DNA of 29,444 nt, from IMG/VR virus record IMGVR_UViG_3300021365_000070, positions 1 through 29,444 of that record; one strand, written 5' to 3'. Positions within the stretch are counted from its first letter, which is position 1. The number at the start of each line of letters is the position of its first letter. The translations under genes and the position numbers were made by a program. Under the pieces are notes generated by a model. It saw only the letters and a program-made list of their open reading frames with translations, searched no databases and was not told the DNA's origin. This DNA is from a virus. Below are positions 21,899 to 29,444 of this stretch, in pieces.

Positions 21899-22735
21899 TT
21901 AATCTTTTTCGGATACGGCTCGACCTTTAAGTTTTTCCCAATCACGGGATGGTCTTACTTCTAAATTCTTTTTCCAAACCGATGATAGTACAGTCGGCTC
22001 GAAGCCCAAGCTTCTTGCAAAATGAATTAAAGCATTGATATCTTTAGGGAAACAGCTACCTCCGAATCCCTGTTGTCCATCAGGACCTGGGACTGACAAG
22101 TGAGTTCCTCCGATTCTAGTATCATATAGTGAGTAACCTAGTACCTTATCGTAATCGATATTAATATTTGCACACACCTTTCTCATCTCATTAGCAAAGC
22201 TGACTTTAGTGGCAAGAAAAGTATTCGTAAAATACTTAACCATTTCTGCTACTGTCGGCTCTGTCTTAACAATCAAGACATTTGGGAATGCTTTTTTAAA
22301 CATATCTGCTACTTTTGTTGATGGATCCTGATGTCCACCAATGATTATTCTATTTTGATTCTTGAAGTCATCAATGTAATTTGCCTCTGTTAAGAACTCT
22401 GGGCTGAATACCACTGATAGGTTTTTTGTTTCCGCGTTCAATCTTTCTGTCGTCGTTGGCAATATCGTTGATTTAATAATCGCAATGTGCCCATTAGAAT
22501 GCTTGTCTGCCTCTTGGATAACCTCCTCAATTATGGAAAGATCGCAAGAACCGTCCAAACGCATTGGGGTAGGCAAACACACAAAAAACATCTTTGTTTT
22601 TGTCATTAACTCTTCAAGAGTGGAACATGATGAGTCTTTGAACTTATCATATGTCTCAATATCAAACTTGCTTTTTAGTCCTTCACGGATTGCTGTTCCA
22701 ACAAATCCTTGACCAATAATTCCAATTGCTTTCAT
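21899..22735 (-). CDS. Short UDP-glucose/GDP-mannose dehydrogenase-like protein
   Basis: Family enzymes oxidise UDP-sugars to uronic acids using NAD. The 278 residues hold the NAD-binding domain (GQGFVG, with Gly8/Gly10/Gly13), the FVCLPTPMR strand (51-59), the IIKSTILPTTT segment (86-96), VVFSPEFLTEAN with Glu113, the central helix TFLATKVSFANEMRK with Lys177, and the catalytic-cysteine motif GFGGSCFPKD (Cys228, Lys231). It ends soon after, so the usual C-terminal UDP-binding domain of about 120-150 residues is absent. The frame is intact with a normal stop, and such short forms are, to my memory, common in T4-like cyanophages. The stop of the recombination gene is directly followed by its ATG (TAAATG). 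A role in glycan or nucleotide-sugar change during infection is inferred. Confidence 0.85.
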   Translation of the reverse strand: MKAIGIIGQGFVGTAIREGLKSKFDIETYDKFKDSSCSTLEELMTKTKMFFVCLPTPMRLDGSCDLSIIEEVIQEADKHSNGHIAIIKSTILPTTTERLNAETKNLSVVFSPEFLTEANYIDDFKNQNRIIIGGHQDPSTKVADMFKKAFPNVLIVKTEPTVAEMVKYFTNTFLATKVSFANEMRKVCANINIDYDKVLGYSLYDTRIGGTHLSVPGPDGQQGFGGSCFPKDINALIHFARSLGFEPTVLSSVWKKNLEVRPSRDWEKLKGRAVSEKD

Positions 22736-25700
22736 TTATACCTCATATACTTTTGCGAATCCGTCTTCTTTCTCAATAATAATTTGCTTATCTACGATGT
22801 CTTTTAGAGTATCGAGGTGAGAGATAAGAAGAACAGTTTTAAATTGTGATTTGATCATCTCCAAAATCCTGACAAAACCTTCCATATTCTCTTCGTCAAG
22901 AGCAGTGCCGGGTTCATCAAGGACGAAGATGTCACCCTTGGGCATTGTTGTTACGTTCAGGAGAGCAAGACGGATTGCCATTGCAGCAATGGTCTTTTCT
23001 GCTCCCGAGCCTAGCTCAATCGGGCGTGGATCGTATGACGGGTGCTGAATTAGAATGTCCAGCTTTCTGTCGTCGTTTACGAACATAACTTGGAAGTTAA
23101 CAATGCTTGTTAAGATCTTTGAGATCTCTTCGTTAATAAGAGGAAGTCTCTTTTTGATAATGTCATAAGAGATCCCATTGGAATGCATGCAGGTCATTAG
23201 CAAGTGATAAGCAGAATACTGTTTTTGCATTTGCTCCTTTTCTTGCTCTTCTGCTTTGATTTGAGCTAGCTTCTGTTCAAGAGACCCGTTCGTCTTGTAA
23301 AATTCAAGTGTCTCCTTCTTGCAGCACTCATGCTCCTCATTCTTAAGGGTAATCTTCTTATCAATTGATTTAAACTCTTTGCTTAATTGTTCGTAGTTTT
23401 CAATTGCCTCTTTATTCTCGTTATAAAGAGACCTTTTGTCTTCCAAGAAATCAATGGTATTTTTCATCTTAATTGATAAAGTTTTGTTCTTCTCTAGTGA
23501 AAGCAATAGATCATTCACTTCTTTCGAAATAACATTGTTTTTTTCTAGTAGTTGTAGATATTTTTCGTACCTTTCCTCAATTTTAGTGCCTTCTAGTTGA
23601 TCAAGTTCACGTTGGACCTTGTTTCTTGAAATTTGTAAGTCCTCAACACTCTTCTTTGTAACATCAACTATGTTTGAAGCGGAGTATGCATCTTTAATAA
23701 ATTTACAATGGGAGTACTCTTCGCCGCAAGGTACTTCGTTGAGTAAGCCGGTCTTCTTCTCTTGCTGCTTAAGCTTAAGTAGAAGAAGGTCAAGATCTGT
23801 CTCAAGTTGGTTTAGCTTGTCTTCGTTATCAGCGACCTTGTTTCTTGCGTTTTGAATATTATCAATGGGAAAGTTTTCAATAAAGGTTTTAATTTTATTG
23901 TTCATTTCTTGCTTTTCAGCTAGAAGTCCTTTCTTTTTCTCGCTTTCTTTAGCAGTGGATATGAACTTCTCCTTATTGAGCTTTATCTCCTCAAGGACTT
24001 GGTTGATATCGATAATCTCTTCGGGGATCGAAGAGAGAGAGGACTCCAGACTTTTCTTTTTAGACTCAAGCTCCTCTACTTCAATTTTTATTTCTTTGCA
24101 CATTCTTTCTTTGTGCTCAATTGCTGTTTCGTTTCTTGCTAACTCTGTATTCAGATCTGTAAGATCTTGATCAAAATCTCTTGCGTCAAACCTTTTAAGG
24201 GCAGACCTTAAGTCCGATGCGTCTTCTTTCGCTTTTTTAAACTTCTTTTCAAAAATCTCCAAGTCAAGGAATTTTGCCAAAATCTCTTTTCGCTTTGTTG
24301 ACCCTTCGTTGATATAATTTAGAGAACCCAGTTGAGAAGCCATCGAGGTCAATAAGAAATCGTCAAGACTGCCAAAGACAGAGCGGATATTCTTATCGGT
24401 GCTTGACCGCTTATCGCCTGTTAGAACCACTTCCTCGTTTGTATCTTGATCGAAGCGTGTGAACTCAACATTAGTCTTTGCTTCTTGCGATGTATTACCT
24501 TTTAAAGTTCGTTCATACTTTATACTTTCCCGATCAATCTTATATACTGAATGTCCAACTGCGACTTCAACAGAGGCTTTAGCTGCTTCGCGGTTCTGGT
24601 TAATGATATTAAGGTTCTTTCTTTCATTCTTTGATGTAGAATTGAAAAGGGTATAAAGAAAGCTATCAATGATAGAACTCTTGCCACTAAAATTCTTACC
24701 AAGAATACCGACGACGCCTTGCATTTTTTCAAAGTCAATGACGTTATCTTCGCCATAATTAAATAAGTTGTCCCACTTAAGCGAGAGAAGTTTCCAGTTA
24801 ATGTTTCTTTTAACCTCCTCTTCTTCTTCAGCAAGGACGTTGTACTTATGATTTAAATGGAAAATACGCTGGAGAGTTTCGGGATCGACTTGATATTCAC
24901 TTAAGTACTCGTCAATAAGCTCTTGTTGGACTTCTATATCTCGAAGGTCGTCATTACCGATTCCTTCGATGATTTCGTCAGGGGACCCGCTTGAACCGTT
25001 GGCTCGGCAAACATAAGTAACGGACTCCGCTTTAAACTTGGTTTTAACCAGTTCAATACCGCGACGTATTACATCCAATGGTAAGGTGTTCTCTGATACA
25101 AGTCTAACGCGGGCATTGTCTTTGATTTTAAGCTTTTTTGGAAGACGCCCTTGCCTTGTTAAATCAACTGTAATGAAAGGTTTTGGGTTCTCAAGAACGA
25201 CATGCTCAACAGTAAAATCATCTTTGTCTTTTATATCCCAAAGTAGAAACCCTTTATCCGGCGTTTCACCAAAGTTTTGCTGAATAAGCGAGCCAGGATA
25301 GCGCATCTTTCCTTTCTTATCGACTTTCTGATTTGTCTTGTGGATATCTCCAAGCAAGACGTAATCATAACCCAGGAGTTCAGATAAACTAATGTCGCCG
25401 TGGCTTAATACGAATCCGGCGTCTGTAGATACGCCAGAGACACAACCATGATAGAGAGCAATATTGATCTTGCTTTCGTCCTCTGGTGGCGTCCAGTTCT
25501 CTGGATCAATGATAGATAAGACGTTTAAAACACAATCTTGTCCAACATCCACTTGTGCAGTGTTCTTATGCAAGAACAAGTTAGGGTGCCCAAGAGCTTC
25601 AACAATTGGTGTGATGGCATCAATTCTTGATAGGTTTCTTAAGTTTAGATCGTGGTTACCCAAGATGACATGATAAGGAGCGATGTCTGCTAAATTCTTA

Positions 25701-25891
25701 AACATCTTCGCTGTCATATCGAAATAAGACGGACTTAAATTTAATTTAGTATGAGCAGTATCGCCCGTATTAACAATAATATCGGGCTTTAGTTCTCTTA
25801 ACTTCTCGTAAAGCTGGTCGAATACCTGTTGGTATTCTTTATGGTATCGATAGTTTCTGACGTGTATGTCACTTACGTGTGCTATCTTCAA
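22736..25891 (-). CDS. gp47-gp46: Fused SbcD/Mre11 (gp47) - SbcC/Rad50 (gp46) recombination nuclease-ATPase
   Basis: One unbroken 1051-residue frame contains both halves of the T4 gp46/gp47 complex. Residues 1-240 are a Mre11-type metallo-nuclease: VSDIH (Asp8, His10), NTGDTAH (Asp44), LGNHD (Asn79, His80), YHGCVSG (His148), LGDIH (Asp182, His184), YPGSL. A capping region follows, then the linker AEEEEEVK near 354-361. From 365 onward is the Rad50 part: ILGKNFSGKSS Walker A (Gly398, Lys404), a Q-loop-side region around SQLGSLNYINEG, long coiled coils (545-895) with PCGEEYSHC (Cys722, Cys729) at the turn, the signature IELGSGAEKT (958-967) and Walker B DIFVLDEPG (987-995). It processes DNA ends for recombination-dependent replication. 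It has its own sigma70-like promoter and a GGAGG site. Confidence 0.95.
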   Translation of the reverse strand: MKIAHVSDIHVRNYRYHKEYQQVFDQLYEKLRELKPDIIVNTGDTAHTKLNLSPSYFDMTAKMFKNLADIAPYHVILGNHDLNLRNLSRIDAITPIVEALGHPNLFLHKNTAQVDVGQDCVLNVLSIIDPENWTPPEDESKINIALYHGCVSGVSTDAGFVLSHGDISLSELLGYDYVLLGDIHKTNQKVDKKGKMRYPGSLIQQNFGETPDKGFLLWDIKDKDDFTVEHVVLENPKPFITVDLTRQGRLPKKLKIKDNARVRLVSENTLPLDVIRRGIELVKTKFKAESVTYVCRANGSSGSPDEIIEGIGNDDLRDIEVQQELIDEYLSEYQVDPETLQRIFHLNHKYNVLAEEEEEVKRNINWKLLSLKWDNLFNYGEDNVIDFEKMQGVVGILGKNFSGKSSIIDSFLYTLFNSTSKNERKNLNIINQNREAAKASVEVAVGHSVYKIDRESIKYERTLKGNTSQEAKTNVEFTRFDQDTNEEVVLTGDKRSSTDKNIRSVFGSLDDFLLTSMASQLGSLNYINEGSTKRKEILAKFLDLEIFEKKFKKAKEDASDLRSALKRFDARDFDQDLTDLNTELARNETAIEHKERMCKEIKIEVEELESKKKSLESSLSSIPEEIIDINQVLEEIKLNKEKFISTAKESEKKKGLLAEKQEMNNKIKTFIENFPIDNIQNARNKVADNEDKLNQLETDLDLLLLKLKQQEKKTGLLNEVPCGEEYSHCKFIKDAYSASNIVDVTKKSVEDLQISRNKVQRELDQLEGTKIEERYEKYLQLLEKNNVISKEVNDLLLSLEKNKTLSIKMKNTIDFLEDKRSLYNENKEAIENYEQLSKEFKSIDKKITLKNEEHECCKKETLEFYKTNGSLEQKLAQIKAEEQEKEQMQKQYSAYHLLMTCMHSNGISYDIIKKRLPLINEEISKILTSIVNFQVMFVNDDRKLDILIQHPSYDPRPIELGSGAEKTIAAMAIRLALLNVTTMPKGDIFVLDEPGTALDEENMEGFVRILEMIKSQFKTVLLISHLDTLKDIVDKQIIIEKEDGFAKVYEV

Positions 25892-25917
25892 GCGTACCTC
25901 CGCACTGTTCTACCTAT

Positions 25918-26555: not shown

Positions 26556-27497
26556 TCAAATAGCCATAAGGGCTTTCGTTAACATATAAGTATCTTCTTC
26601 AATATAGACTGCTTGGCTTTTTCGAAACTTAAATTCTTCTTTTGTCATCTCGCCAACATCGTTGAAAGGCGAGATATCAACTTTATGCACCTGAACACCA
26701 TACCTCAACAACTTCCTTATCAGGCTATCTTCTTTTTTTGATGCGTCTGGATCAAGGGCAACATAAACCGGCGTATCGTTTCTAACGATCTTTTGGAAGA
26801 GTTGAGAAGTATCTTTAAGTGTTGATCCAAGAAGAGGGGCAGAGTTTGGACCTGCGACGATGGCGTCAAAGACACCCTCGACTAAAACCAAATCTGAATC
26901 AAAATCTAAATAAAGATCATTGAAAATAATATCTTTACTTGCTGTCGGGTTTAAATACTTCTTCCAGTCTCCAATGTACGTTCGTGTCACAAAGTAATTA
27001 CAATAGCCATCTTCGCTGAACGAAGGAATAAGGATGCGACCATCGTATTGTCCGCCTTCGCAATATCCAATTTTCCAATAGATAACATCTTTTTTCGTAA
27101 GACCTCTATCCTTGAGGTATATTTGGGCGTTTTGGGAAGTGAGGGGTAAATTCTTATTTGCCAATGACTTAAATTCGGTCGGTATGCTCAATCTTTGATC
27201 TAGATCGACTTCTTTCGTCGCGAACAGATCATCAGAGAATAAAGTTAGATCTACCTCATCAGTAAGTTCTGACCACCTAGAAAGGTGATTGTAGTCCCCA
27301 TACTTTCGGATAAGACGACGGAGGGAAGTTCCCACATAATCGCAGATCCAACACTTAAAAGCATTCTTATCTAAATTAACTGAAAGCTTCTTTTTGTGGT
27401 GATTGCACTTGGGACAGTAAAAAAGATACTCCTCACCTGAATTAAAACAATTCCCTAAGACTTCTTTGAGGATTTGGAGCTTTTTTCCCTCTGACAT
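26556..27497 (-). CDS. gp61: DnaG-type primase (gp61-like)
   Basis: This 313-residue primase makes RNA primers on the lagging strand. The N-terminal zinc-binding domain has YCPKCNHHKK (Cys28, Cys31) and FKCWICDYVG (Cys49, Cys52). The TOPRIM catalytic domain has LVLVEGVFDAI (Glu207) and VALDPDAS (Asp249, Asp251). Between them, residues about 120-190 resemble the RNA-polymerase-like basic domain of DnaG (DRGLTKKDVIYWKIGY, DGRILIPSF, TRTYIGDWKKYLN). No helicase domain is attached. The start overlaps the RuvC-like gene by 43 bases, a long overlap. T4 gp61 is of similar size (342). Confidence in DnaG/TOPRIM family membership is high; equivalence to gp61 is inferred from the phage type. Confidence 0.88.
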   Translation of the reverse strand: MSEGKKLQILKEVLGNCFNSGEEYLFYCPKCNHHKKKLSVNLDKNAFKCWICDYVGTSLRRLIRKYGDYNHLSRWSELTDEVDLTLFSDDLFATKEVDLDQRLSIPTEFKSLANKNLPLTSQNAQIYLKDRGLTKKDVIYWKIGYCEGGQYDGRILIPSFSEDGYCNYFVTRTYIGDWKKYLNPTASKDIIFNDLYLDFDSDLVLVEGVFDAIVAGPNSAPLLGSTLKDTSQLFQKIVRNDTPVYVALDPDASKKEDSLIRKLLRYGVQVHKVDISPFNDVGEMTKEEFKFRKSQAVYIEEDTYMLTKALMAI

Positions 27498-28003
27498 AGA
27501 GTGTGACCTGCCTTGGCAATTACCCAGCTATCAGCTTTATCGTAGCATTCAGGTTTTGGATTATTAAACTTTGTGTATTGTATCGTGACGCCTGGTACTT
27601 TGTCAAGTACATATTGTATAACAACACCTTTTGCCTTTACGCCTCTTGGTATTCTTATTCCACAAAGCTTACGAGCGGAGGTTGCTGCTATATATTCTGG
27701 TTCTGTCTGCAATACTCGATATACAAGCCATGACACAATCCCATTAAAACGAGAGAGAGTTGACAAAGTTTTTGCGGAGGAGAATCCAGACCTGAAAGTT
27801 TGGAGAGATTGTTCGATAAATACTTTTTCGAATCCTCCGTAAAGTTTATTAAGGTGTACAATTTTTTCCTCAATATATGCCGCCTTGACAAAGAAGTTTT
27901 TAAATTTTCTTGTGTCCCAGGCTTCATTGTAGAGAACCTCTCCTTCCTTGTCAAGTATTGTTGCGCCAGTAATACTCGTACTGACATCTAGTCCTAAAAT
28001 CAT
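27455..28003 (-). CDS. RuvC-like Holliday junction nuclease
   Basis: This 182-residue RNase-H-fold protein starts MILGLDVSTSITGATILD (Asp6, first catalytic acid). It has VFIEQSLQTF (Glu64, second) and ECYDKADSWVIAKAG (Asp155/Asp158, last acids), the order found in RuvC-type resolvases. T4 itself resolves junctions with an unrelated enzyme (gp49); RuvC-like proteins are used in many cyanophages and other phages. The start overlaps the upstream virion gene (ATGA) and the end overlaps the primase by 43 bases. It likely removes branched DNA before packaging or during recombination, acting together with the gp47-gp46 fusion protein. Confidence 0.85.
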   Translation of the reverse strand: MILGLDVSTSITGATILDKEGEVLYNEAWDTRKFKNFFVKAAYIEEKIVHLNKLYGGFEKVFIEQSLQTFRSGFSSAKTLSTLSRFNGIVSWLVYRVLQTEPEYIAATSARKLCGIRIPRGVKAKGVVIQYVLDKVPGVTIQYTKFNNPKPECYDKADSWVIAKAGHTLCQREKSSKSSKKS

Positions 28004-29139
28004 ATATCCAATTTTAATTTAAATGTGAAATCTTCCGATTCTAATTTCCTAACTGGATTGGCAAGCTTTGCGACAGCAATAAGATTCCTGTCCTTGTCAT
28101 ATACTCCAATTGAAGAAATATAAGTCACATTGTTGAAGGACTCATTATAATCAGAAAATGAGCTACTGTTAATATTTTTTATTGGCGTGGGCGATTCAAA
28201 GTACCCTAGCTTGCCTGTCGATAAAGAACTTGTTATTTGGTCTTTAGATCTGAACGTTGGGTTATTAGAGTGGTTTAGTTCGCCTTGAGGAGCTTTCGCG
28301 AACATGGTCATTGTTGGAGTATAGGTTGTGCCTTCGAACGCCATAGAAAATACATTTCTATTACTTGTAGGTGTGCCAAAGTATGTCCATCTAGGTCCAT
28401 CAACTTGCGTTCCTTCGTAGAGGTCTGTATATTCTCCAGCAGATAAATCAGTTAATCCGTTAAGGAGAAGAACTCCTTCGCCATATAAGGCTACTCCGAC
28501 TGTACTCCCACTGCCTGGACTGTCTACCGGCAATGTTTGAATAAGATTGCCGTTGCGGTTGATATCTTGTGCTCGACCTACGAGTGTACCAGTAATAAAA
28601 AACTTTAAATCAACAGTCCCTTTTTTAATCTCTGAGCCGTAGAAGATAGAAGGAATTGAAATAAGATTCAATGAACCTGTTGAGTAGTCTCCAAACGAAC
28701 TGGAAACTCTATAGTTGGGACTTAGTGGAGTATAAGACTTCATTGCAGTCTTGATCGAATCAAGCCTTACTCGCTTCTCATCAACAGCGTAATACCTTCG
28801 GTGATAAGAAGAGGACAGCGGATAGCTACTAGAGATTTCGTCTCCATAATTAAAGTTCTGATTGAACTCATCTAGCGAGACCGTGTTAAATGCAGAGAGC
28901 CCGCTTTCTTTTGTCAAGAAGGGATATATAAGTCCGCCAGAGCGGCGGTCTACATTCATCTCATATAAGCTAACGTGTCCAGTTGGGATATGCCCGACGT
29001 TGGCAACATGAGTGCCGCTTATCTTTGGAACGCTATTGTAATACCTAGTTCCACTAATGTAAGTAATGAACTCTGTTCGTGGATGTGCCTTTACTTGATT
29101 ATAAAGAAGATCATTAGGTCCAAATTTGTAATACGGCAT
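28000..29139 (-). CDS. Virion structural protein (tail/baseplate-associated), paralog of upstream gene
   Basis: A 379-residue protein beginning MPYYKFGPNDLLYNQVKAHP. It is rich in Tyr, Ser, Gly and Thr, with SSSY and GTRYYN-type stretches typical of phage structural proteins. It has no enzyme motif or membrane segment. Its last 45 residues (TYISSIGVYDKDRNLIAVAK followed by LANPVRKLESEDFTFKLKLDI) closely match the end of the neighbouring partial gene (29169-29444). That ending recurs, to my memory, in structural proteins of marine T4-like phages. The ribosome site GTGGAG is good. It is probably a baseplate or fiber-attachment protein; the exact role is not identified. Confidence 0.8.
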   Translation of the reverse strand: MPYYKFGPNDLLYNQVKAHPRTEFITYISGTRYYNSVPKISGTHVANVGHIPTGHVSLYEMNVDRRSGGLIYPFLTKESGLSAFNTVSLDEFNQNFNYGDEISSSYPLSSSYHRRYYAVDEKRVRLDSIKTAMKSYTPLSPNYRVSSSFGDYSTGSLNLISIPSIFYGSEIKKGTVDLKFFITGTLVGRAQDINRNGNLIQTLPVDSPGSGSTVGVALYGEGVLLLNGLTDLSAGEYTDLYEGTQVDGPRWTYFGTPTSNRNVFSMAFEGTTYTPTMTMFAKAPQGELNHSNNPTFRSKDQITSSLSTGKLGYFESPTPIKNINSSSFSDYNESFNNVTYISSIGVYDKDRNLIAVAKLANPVRKLESEDFTFKLKLDI

Positions 29140-29168
29140 TTCTAAACTCCACTATGCTTATCAGTACT

Positions 29169-29444
29169 TTAATAGTCTAGGCGCACGCGGAATGTTAGCT
29201 CGTTTGTCGGATCCTTCTTAATAGGCTCTGAAAGTTTCGCTACAGCAAGTAATTCGTTGTCAGCAGAGTATAATCCAATCGTTGTAGCATATGCCACTGG
29301 ATTGTCTAGTGTATTATTCTTGACAACAATTTTACTGCTCGATACATATGTTGGGTTCGTGCTGTAATTAAAGTCTGTATTATTGGCTCTACAGAAATAG
29401 ATAGTAGAATTTAATTCAGTTGTGTTATTAAAGCTGATATTGTT
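29169..29444 (-). CDS. Partial virion structural protein, paralog, 5' part beyond window
   Basis: My translation of the last 276 bases gives 91 residues and a TAA stop, open at the window edge. The end reads NPVAYATTIGLYSADNELLA, then VAKLSEPIKKDPTNELTFRV and RLDY. It aligns residue by residue with the end of the next gene (IGVYDKDRNLIAVAKLANPV..., FTFKLKLDI). This supports tandem duplication of a structural gene. Function is as for the neighbour: unknown virion component. Confidence 0.82.
   Translation of the reverse strand, partial: NNISFNNTTELNSTIYFCRANNTDFNYSTNPTYVSSSKIVVKNNTLDNPVAYATTIGLYSADNELLAVAKLSEPIKKDPTNELTFRVRLDY

Follow-up and report, generated by a model that had tools for sequence, protein, structure and literature searches.

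Background

Natural fusions of Mre11 and Rad50 have been known since 2011, when Yoshida, Claverie and Ogata described them in Mimivirus (R555), Bacillus phage 0305phi8-36, plasmids, five bacteria, six eukaryotes, and marine metagenomes, argued that the fused architecture is compatible with the known complex, and proposed that fusion occurred repeatedly (PMC3175470). The marine fusions, abundant in viral DNA and seen at that time on only a few long metagenome scaffolds, were inferred by these authors to belong in many cases to small viruses or phages (PMC3175470). In the nuclease half of R555, two motif changes were reported, namely, the replacement of the third Asp by His and that of His206 by Asp, and the hook of the Rad50 half goes unmentioned (PMC3175470). 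We found no literature on natural Mre11-Rad50 fusions beyond this paper, with most subscription journals lying outside the coverage of the search. Among isolated phages, Xanthomonas phage XacN1, Rhizobium phage RHph_Y65, Yersinia phage GN1, and Thermus phage phiLo encode a nuclease followed by an ATPase in one ORF, and the annotations given to fusions of this kind include "recombination endonuclease subunit." In bacteriophage T4, the same two activities reside in gp47 (SbcD-like) and gp46 (SbcC-like), the products of two genes with 46.1 and 46.2 between them.

Here, we describe a fusion gene encoded in a 29,444-nucleotide stretch of viral DNA (IMG/VR record IMGVR_UViG_3300021365_000070, hereafter, the window) and compare it with 66 related loci identified by a scan of IMG/VR. 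Because fusions of this type were already on record in 2011, the gene is a new member of a published architecture (PMC3175470) and not the novelty implied by an earlier note on this sequence. The fusion is a genuine, conserved, functional-looking single-chain enzyme of a marine lineage of T4-like phages that most likely acts as gp46/gp47 do in T4. The Mre11-Rad50 fusion is now placed in T4-like tailed phages, where it shares a conserved block with the genes for a primase, a RuvC-like resolvase, the terminase, and the portal, and some 56 complete sequences allow precise alignment of the linker and the hook; for specialists, the features of note are the conserved C-x6-C hook and a linker of near-constant length.

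Results

An uninterrupted fusion gene in the window and its relatives

The window encodes a T4-type major head protein, a head maturation protease, portal, large terminase, and tail proteins; the terminase is most similar to those of Flavobacterium phage immuto (46%), phage LR756508 (43%), and Microcystis phage Mel-JY01 (41%). The fusion gene occupies positions 22736..25891 on the minus strand, as do all the features described below. It runs from a TTG start at 25891, 5 nt after a ribosome-binding site, GGAGG (25897..25901), to a stop codon that ends at 22736, and encodes 1051 amino acids with zero internal stops; the coordinates and the length are those given in the earlier note. The order of nuclease and then ATPase within a single chain, also read from the sequence in that note, is borne out by the Pfam matches, both above cut-off, of Metallophos (calcineurin-like phosphoesterase) to residues 1-185 (E 1.7e-12) and AAA_23 (SMC-type ATPase) to residues 371-611 (E 3.2e-9). 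PHROGs assigns the protein to the SbcC-like phrog_77, with the match beginning at residue 182. An N-terminal Mre11-like and a C-terminal Rad50-like domain are joined in one frame, and the two separate genes of the T4-type two-subunit system are not what the window encodes.

A fused frame could also arise from an assembly or sequencing error joining two genes, an outcome that the earlier note had flagged together with the existence of two-gene close relatives, and that would accord with the two-gene organization in T4, cyanophages, and Herelleviridae and with a frame break in one relative. However, single-chain homologues with the same domain order were found in 55 of the 56 other complete IMG/VR copies and in the complete isolate genome of Microcystis phage Mel-JY01, and the linker between the halves has a fixed length, with invariant R362 and W366. 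Partial copies at contig ends are likewise single frames over the part present, and none of the 66 IMG/VR loci is a close relative with two genes, the one frame break apart. Because these independent relatives are single-frame, we regard the assembly-error reading as refuted and the probability of an artefact as negligible. The resulting single-frame alignment comprises 56 complete copies including that of the window, 45 of them distinct at 95% identity; counts out of 58 below refer to the alignment of 58 sequences.

The only frame-shifted complete IMG/VR copy (L068:5974-9097) has its break in the capping region, at around residue 265-277, which is probably a sequencing error or decay. In the 484-kb phage LR756508 (L003:2944-7166), the fused gene is interrupted inside the nuclease, past the GDIH motif, by a 305-residue ORF in which a TnsA-like endonuclease domain (PF08722) accompanies CxxC motifs resembling zinc fingers, and the three ORFs abut or overlap. 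A group I intron was considered and rejected because no Rfam intron match was obtained; the insert is better read as an endonuclease ORF, apparently a mobile one by which the gene was split.

Outside this set, the search for plasmid homologues yielded a weak metallophosphatase match only, and a pattern scan of bacterial genomes detected no relative at its sensitivity, so that distant fusions may exist there. In Flavobacterium phage immuto, the source of the closest named terminase, a profile search run without a positive control produced no homologue.

The nuclease half

Residues 1-222 (25226..25891) comprise the Mre11/SbcD-type metallophosphoesterase core, with the ligands D8, H10, D44, N79, H80, H148, D182, and H184, and residues 223-297 (25001..25225) correspond to the Mre11 capping-domain region, as judged from the secondary structure in an AlphaFold2 model and the match to SbcD structures containing nuclease and capping domains. 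Structural comparison of the model using VIA-align gave mainly matches to the Rad50 half, and the nuclease half was identified by sequence together with Foldseek, which matched it to Staphylococcus aureus SbcD (7dog) and Thermotoga maritima Mre11 (4o43). All eight ligands are invariant in 58/58 sequences, along with K404, S962, G963, D992, E993, and H1025 of the ATPase half.

The claim of the earlier note that all the Mre11 metal-ligand motifs are present holds for D8, H10, D44, N79, H148, and H184 and fails for the first His of the last motif, which is Asp182 (GDIH), at the position of Pyrococcus His206. Because one metal ligand is changed from His to Asp in every member of the family, the nuclease rate or the choice of metal may differ. 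The fusion also contains the sequence GDTAH, in which the third Asp of the nuclease motif is replaced by His, and thus carries both changes reported for R555. The GD.H motif is not exclusive to the clade of R555 and the marine metagenomic (GOS) homologues, given that it is shared by phiLo, RHph_Y65, and one Vibrio phage with two genes.

The junction between the halves

The AlphaFold2 model of the fusion, built from a 36-row alignment, has a mean pLDDT of 81 and a pTM of 0.48, and because of this low pTM, the model is no reliable guide to how the nuclease and ATPase halves are positioned with respect to each other. Past the capping region, the chain continues into a flexible loop of variable sequence (residues 298-318, 24938..25000; pLDDT < 50 for 298-312) and then into two modelled helices (319-333 and 337-357) that form a putative Rad50-binding helix-loop-helix (residues 319-357, 24821..24937), in the position where this element would be expected in Mre11. 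Residues 364-366 of the model align with residue 1 of the native SbcC and Rad50 chains. With the helices at 319-357 on one side and residue 366 matching the native start on the other, the linker proper is limited to about residues 358-365 (EEVKRNIN, 24797..24820). The acidic linker of residues 340-365 proposed in the earlier note was placed ~15-20 residues too early and consists mostly of the second helix (337-357).

The linker is 8 residues long in 56/58 homologues and forms part of an R-N-x-x-W motif in which R362 and W366 are invariant and N363 is present in 55/58; the distance from R317 to Walker A is 81 residues in 55/58 sequences. A segment for the capping domain and the putative helix-loop-helix followed by a short linker ahead of Rad50, the organization of the fusion proteins, is what we observe here, and the 8 residues are near the 9-12 estimated to be enough to span a gap of ~28 A in the complex of T. 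maritima (PMC3175470).

This conservation also bears on whether the fused chain could be cut or re-initiated in vivo, yielding separate Mre11 and Rad50. The two-piece arrangement in LR756508 suggests that two pieces may be tolerated, but the break in that phage lies inside the nuclease, away from the junction, and the family strictly maintains both the length of the linker and its R-N-x-x-W motif, so we consider separate products to be highly improbable. As a single chain, with its fixed 8-residue linker, the protein offers a convenient construct for testing the movement of Mre11 relative to Rad50.

The Rad50 half and its hook

The Rad50 half consists of the N-terminal lobe of the ATPase head (residues 366-544, 24260..24796), an outgoing coiled coil (545-718, 23738..24259), a hook turn (719-730, 23702..23737), a returning coiled coil (about 731-900, 23192..23701), and the C-terminal lobe of the head (901-1051, 22739..23191). 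Walker A (GKNFSGKS, 398-405), the signature (SGAEK, 962-966), Walker B extending to E993, and His1025 are all present and vary little or not at all; the earlier note had likewise read Walker A, coiled coils, signature, and Walker B in this part of the chain. From residues 364-366 to 1051, the model aligns with native chains from residue 1 to their ends; for Escherichia coli SbcC (7yzo) and archaeal Rad50 (3av0), Z is 29.4, with an rmsd of 3.9-4.1 over 356-359 aligned residues. The Rad50/SbcC features, namely, Walker A, signature, Walker B, D-loop, H-loop, and the Rad50 fold, are all present.

The hook turn of the window protein is C722-x6-C729, as the earlier note had recognized, and not the CxxC of the zinc hook, which is absent; Pfam Rad50_zn_hook gives no match to this protein. 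The C-x6-C form is the norm for the family (50/58 sequences), with C-x7-C in 4 and CxxC in 4, and the C729 column is Cys in all. Because CxxC varies within the family, its absence is still compatible with a Rad50 homologue. We tentatively propose that, in the hook of this lineage, CxxC has given way to a conserved C-x6/7-C turn (PCGxx[FY]xxCxFI), and that this turn might still join two molecules, through a metal or by another kind of contact that is possibly redox-sensitive. If so, this turn and the classical CxxC of two members of the clade would be naturally occurring hook types that can replace each other while the rest of the single-chain enzyme stays constant. These two members, L016 and L021, have a DPxCxxC hook (at window residues 715-740) of the type found in Mel-JY01 (L002) inside the C-x6-C clade (L016 was placed there by the tree), which suggests reversion or recombination of the hook segment.

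Relationships to other fused and two-gene forms

The nearest named relatives of the window protein (34% identity) are full-length fused homologues, with a primase upstream, in Mel-JY01 (WWT39521, annotated as "AAA domain containing protein") and LR756508. In a tree that covers fused and two-gene forms, the window clade groups with these two phages and LR756501 (support 99). Mel-JY01 and LR756508 differ from the window protein in their classical DPxCxxC-type hook and, in LR756508, in the inserted endonuclease ORF that breaks the gene. XacN1 groups with an Erwinia phage that has two genes (support 100), and phiLo, RHph_Y65, and GN1 form a separate group, a pattern that fits repeated fusion; given the large distances, the deep part of the tree is only a guide.

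In BFVD, the best structural matches come from Tupanvirus, Harvfovirus, and Yasminevirus, relatives of Mimivirus whose proteins are likewise fused, with 24% identity to the best. The fusions of R555, the GOS metagenomes, and 0305phi8-36 resemble that of the window in domain order, in the GDTAH and GDIH changes (R555), and in a short extra segment between the halves, and the GOS homologues share with it a marine viral origin and primases on the same scaffolds. In contrast, R555 is 1351 amino acids long compared to 1051 in the window, and the window fusion belongs to a T4-like myophage lineage with mostly C-x6-C hooks. The T4 proteins share the two activities and, by inference, the role in recombination-dependent replication, but differ in their two-gene organization, the GHFH motif, the CPTC hook, and shorter coils.

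Genomic setting and proposed role

Upstream of the fusion lie a DNA primase gene (phrog_47, 26556..27497), conserved in 42/43 loci with over 3.5 kb of upstream sequence, and a gene for a RuvC-like Holliday-junction resolvase (27455..28003), conserved in 38/43 loci with enough upstream sequence; the large terminase subunit and portal genes are located downstream in most of the longer loci. A search of 9 contigs (101-203 kb) for AAA_23 genes detected none outside the fusion (one contig had no AAA_23 match at all), and a second nuclease of SbcD size was not detected either, the other metallophosphoesterases being 233-240 amino acids only and confined to two contigs. The window is a fragment of its phage's genome, and a second gp46/gp47-like pair may lie in the remainder.

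Our preferred reading, to which we assign a probability of roughly 80%, is that of a single-chain Mre11-Rad50 (SbcD-SbcC) enzyme that forms an M2R2-like homodimer and performs ATP-driven end processing for recombination-dependent replication, like T4 gp46/gp47; the dimer arrangement, enzymatic activity, and replication role are what we infer for it. In ordinary Mre11-Rad50 complexes, the helix-loop-helix is anchored on the Rad50 coil root. Two fused chains would pair through their ATPase heads, around ATP, and through their nuclease halves, producing the equivalent of M2R2 with fixed stoichiometry, and each nuclease half would dock, by its helix-loop-helix, at the root of a Rad50 coiled coil, with the hooks at the coil tips able to join. 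With this anchoring already in place, the 8-residue link need not restrain the nuclease and would merely span the distance from the Mre11 C-terminus to the Rad50 N-terminus; the movable hinge of the nuclease is probably the loop 298-318. ATP binding and hydrolysis would open and close the heads and move the nuclease over DNA ends, regulating access, and the ends would be trimmed or resected to feed recombination-dependent replication, much as gp46/gp47 serve this process in T4.

Alternatively, the fusion could be a specialized Rad50-type complex involved in host-genome degradation or counter-defence. T4 gp46/gp47 are annotated as needed for host-DNA degradation, and in cells with both forms, the fused version may act differently (PMC3175470). 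Nevertheless, the primase and RuvC-like resolvase are conserved neighbours, and the fusion is the sole Rad50-like gene seen in the large contigs, so that we consider a specialized function unlikely compared with a replication-recombination enzyme.

Directly downstream of the fusion, the window carries a UDP-glucose dehydrogenase-like gene (21899-22735) that, among the flanks of the relatives, is found only in L007 (80% identical) and is therefore probably a recent auxiliary acquisition. Upstream of the RuvC-like gene, two adjacent unknown genes (28000-29444) both match one 859-amino-acid ORF in another locus (L067:1001-3577), and the L007 homologue of the outer one shows a weak match to an Ig-like domain, slightly below cut-off.
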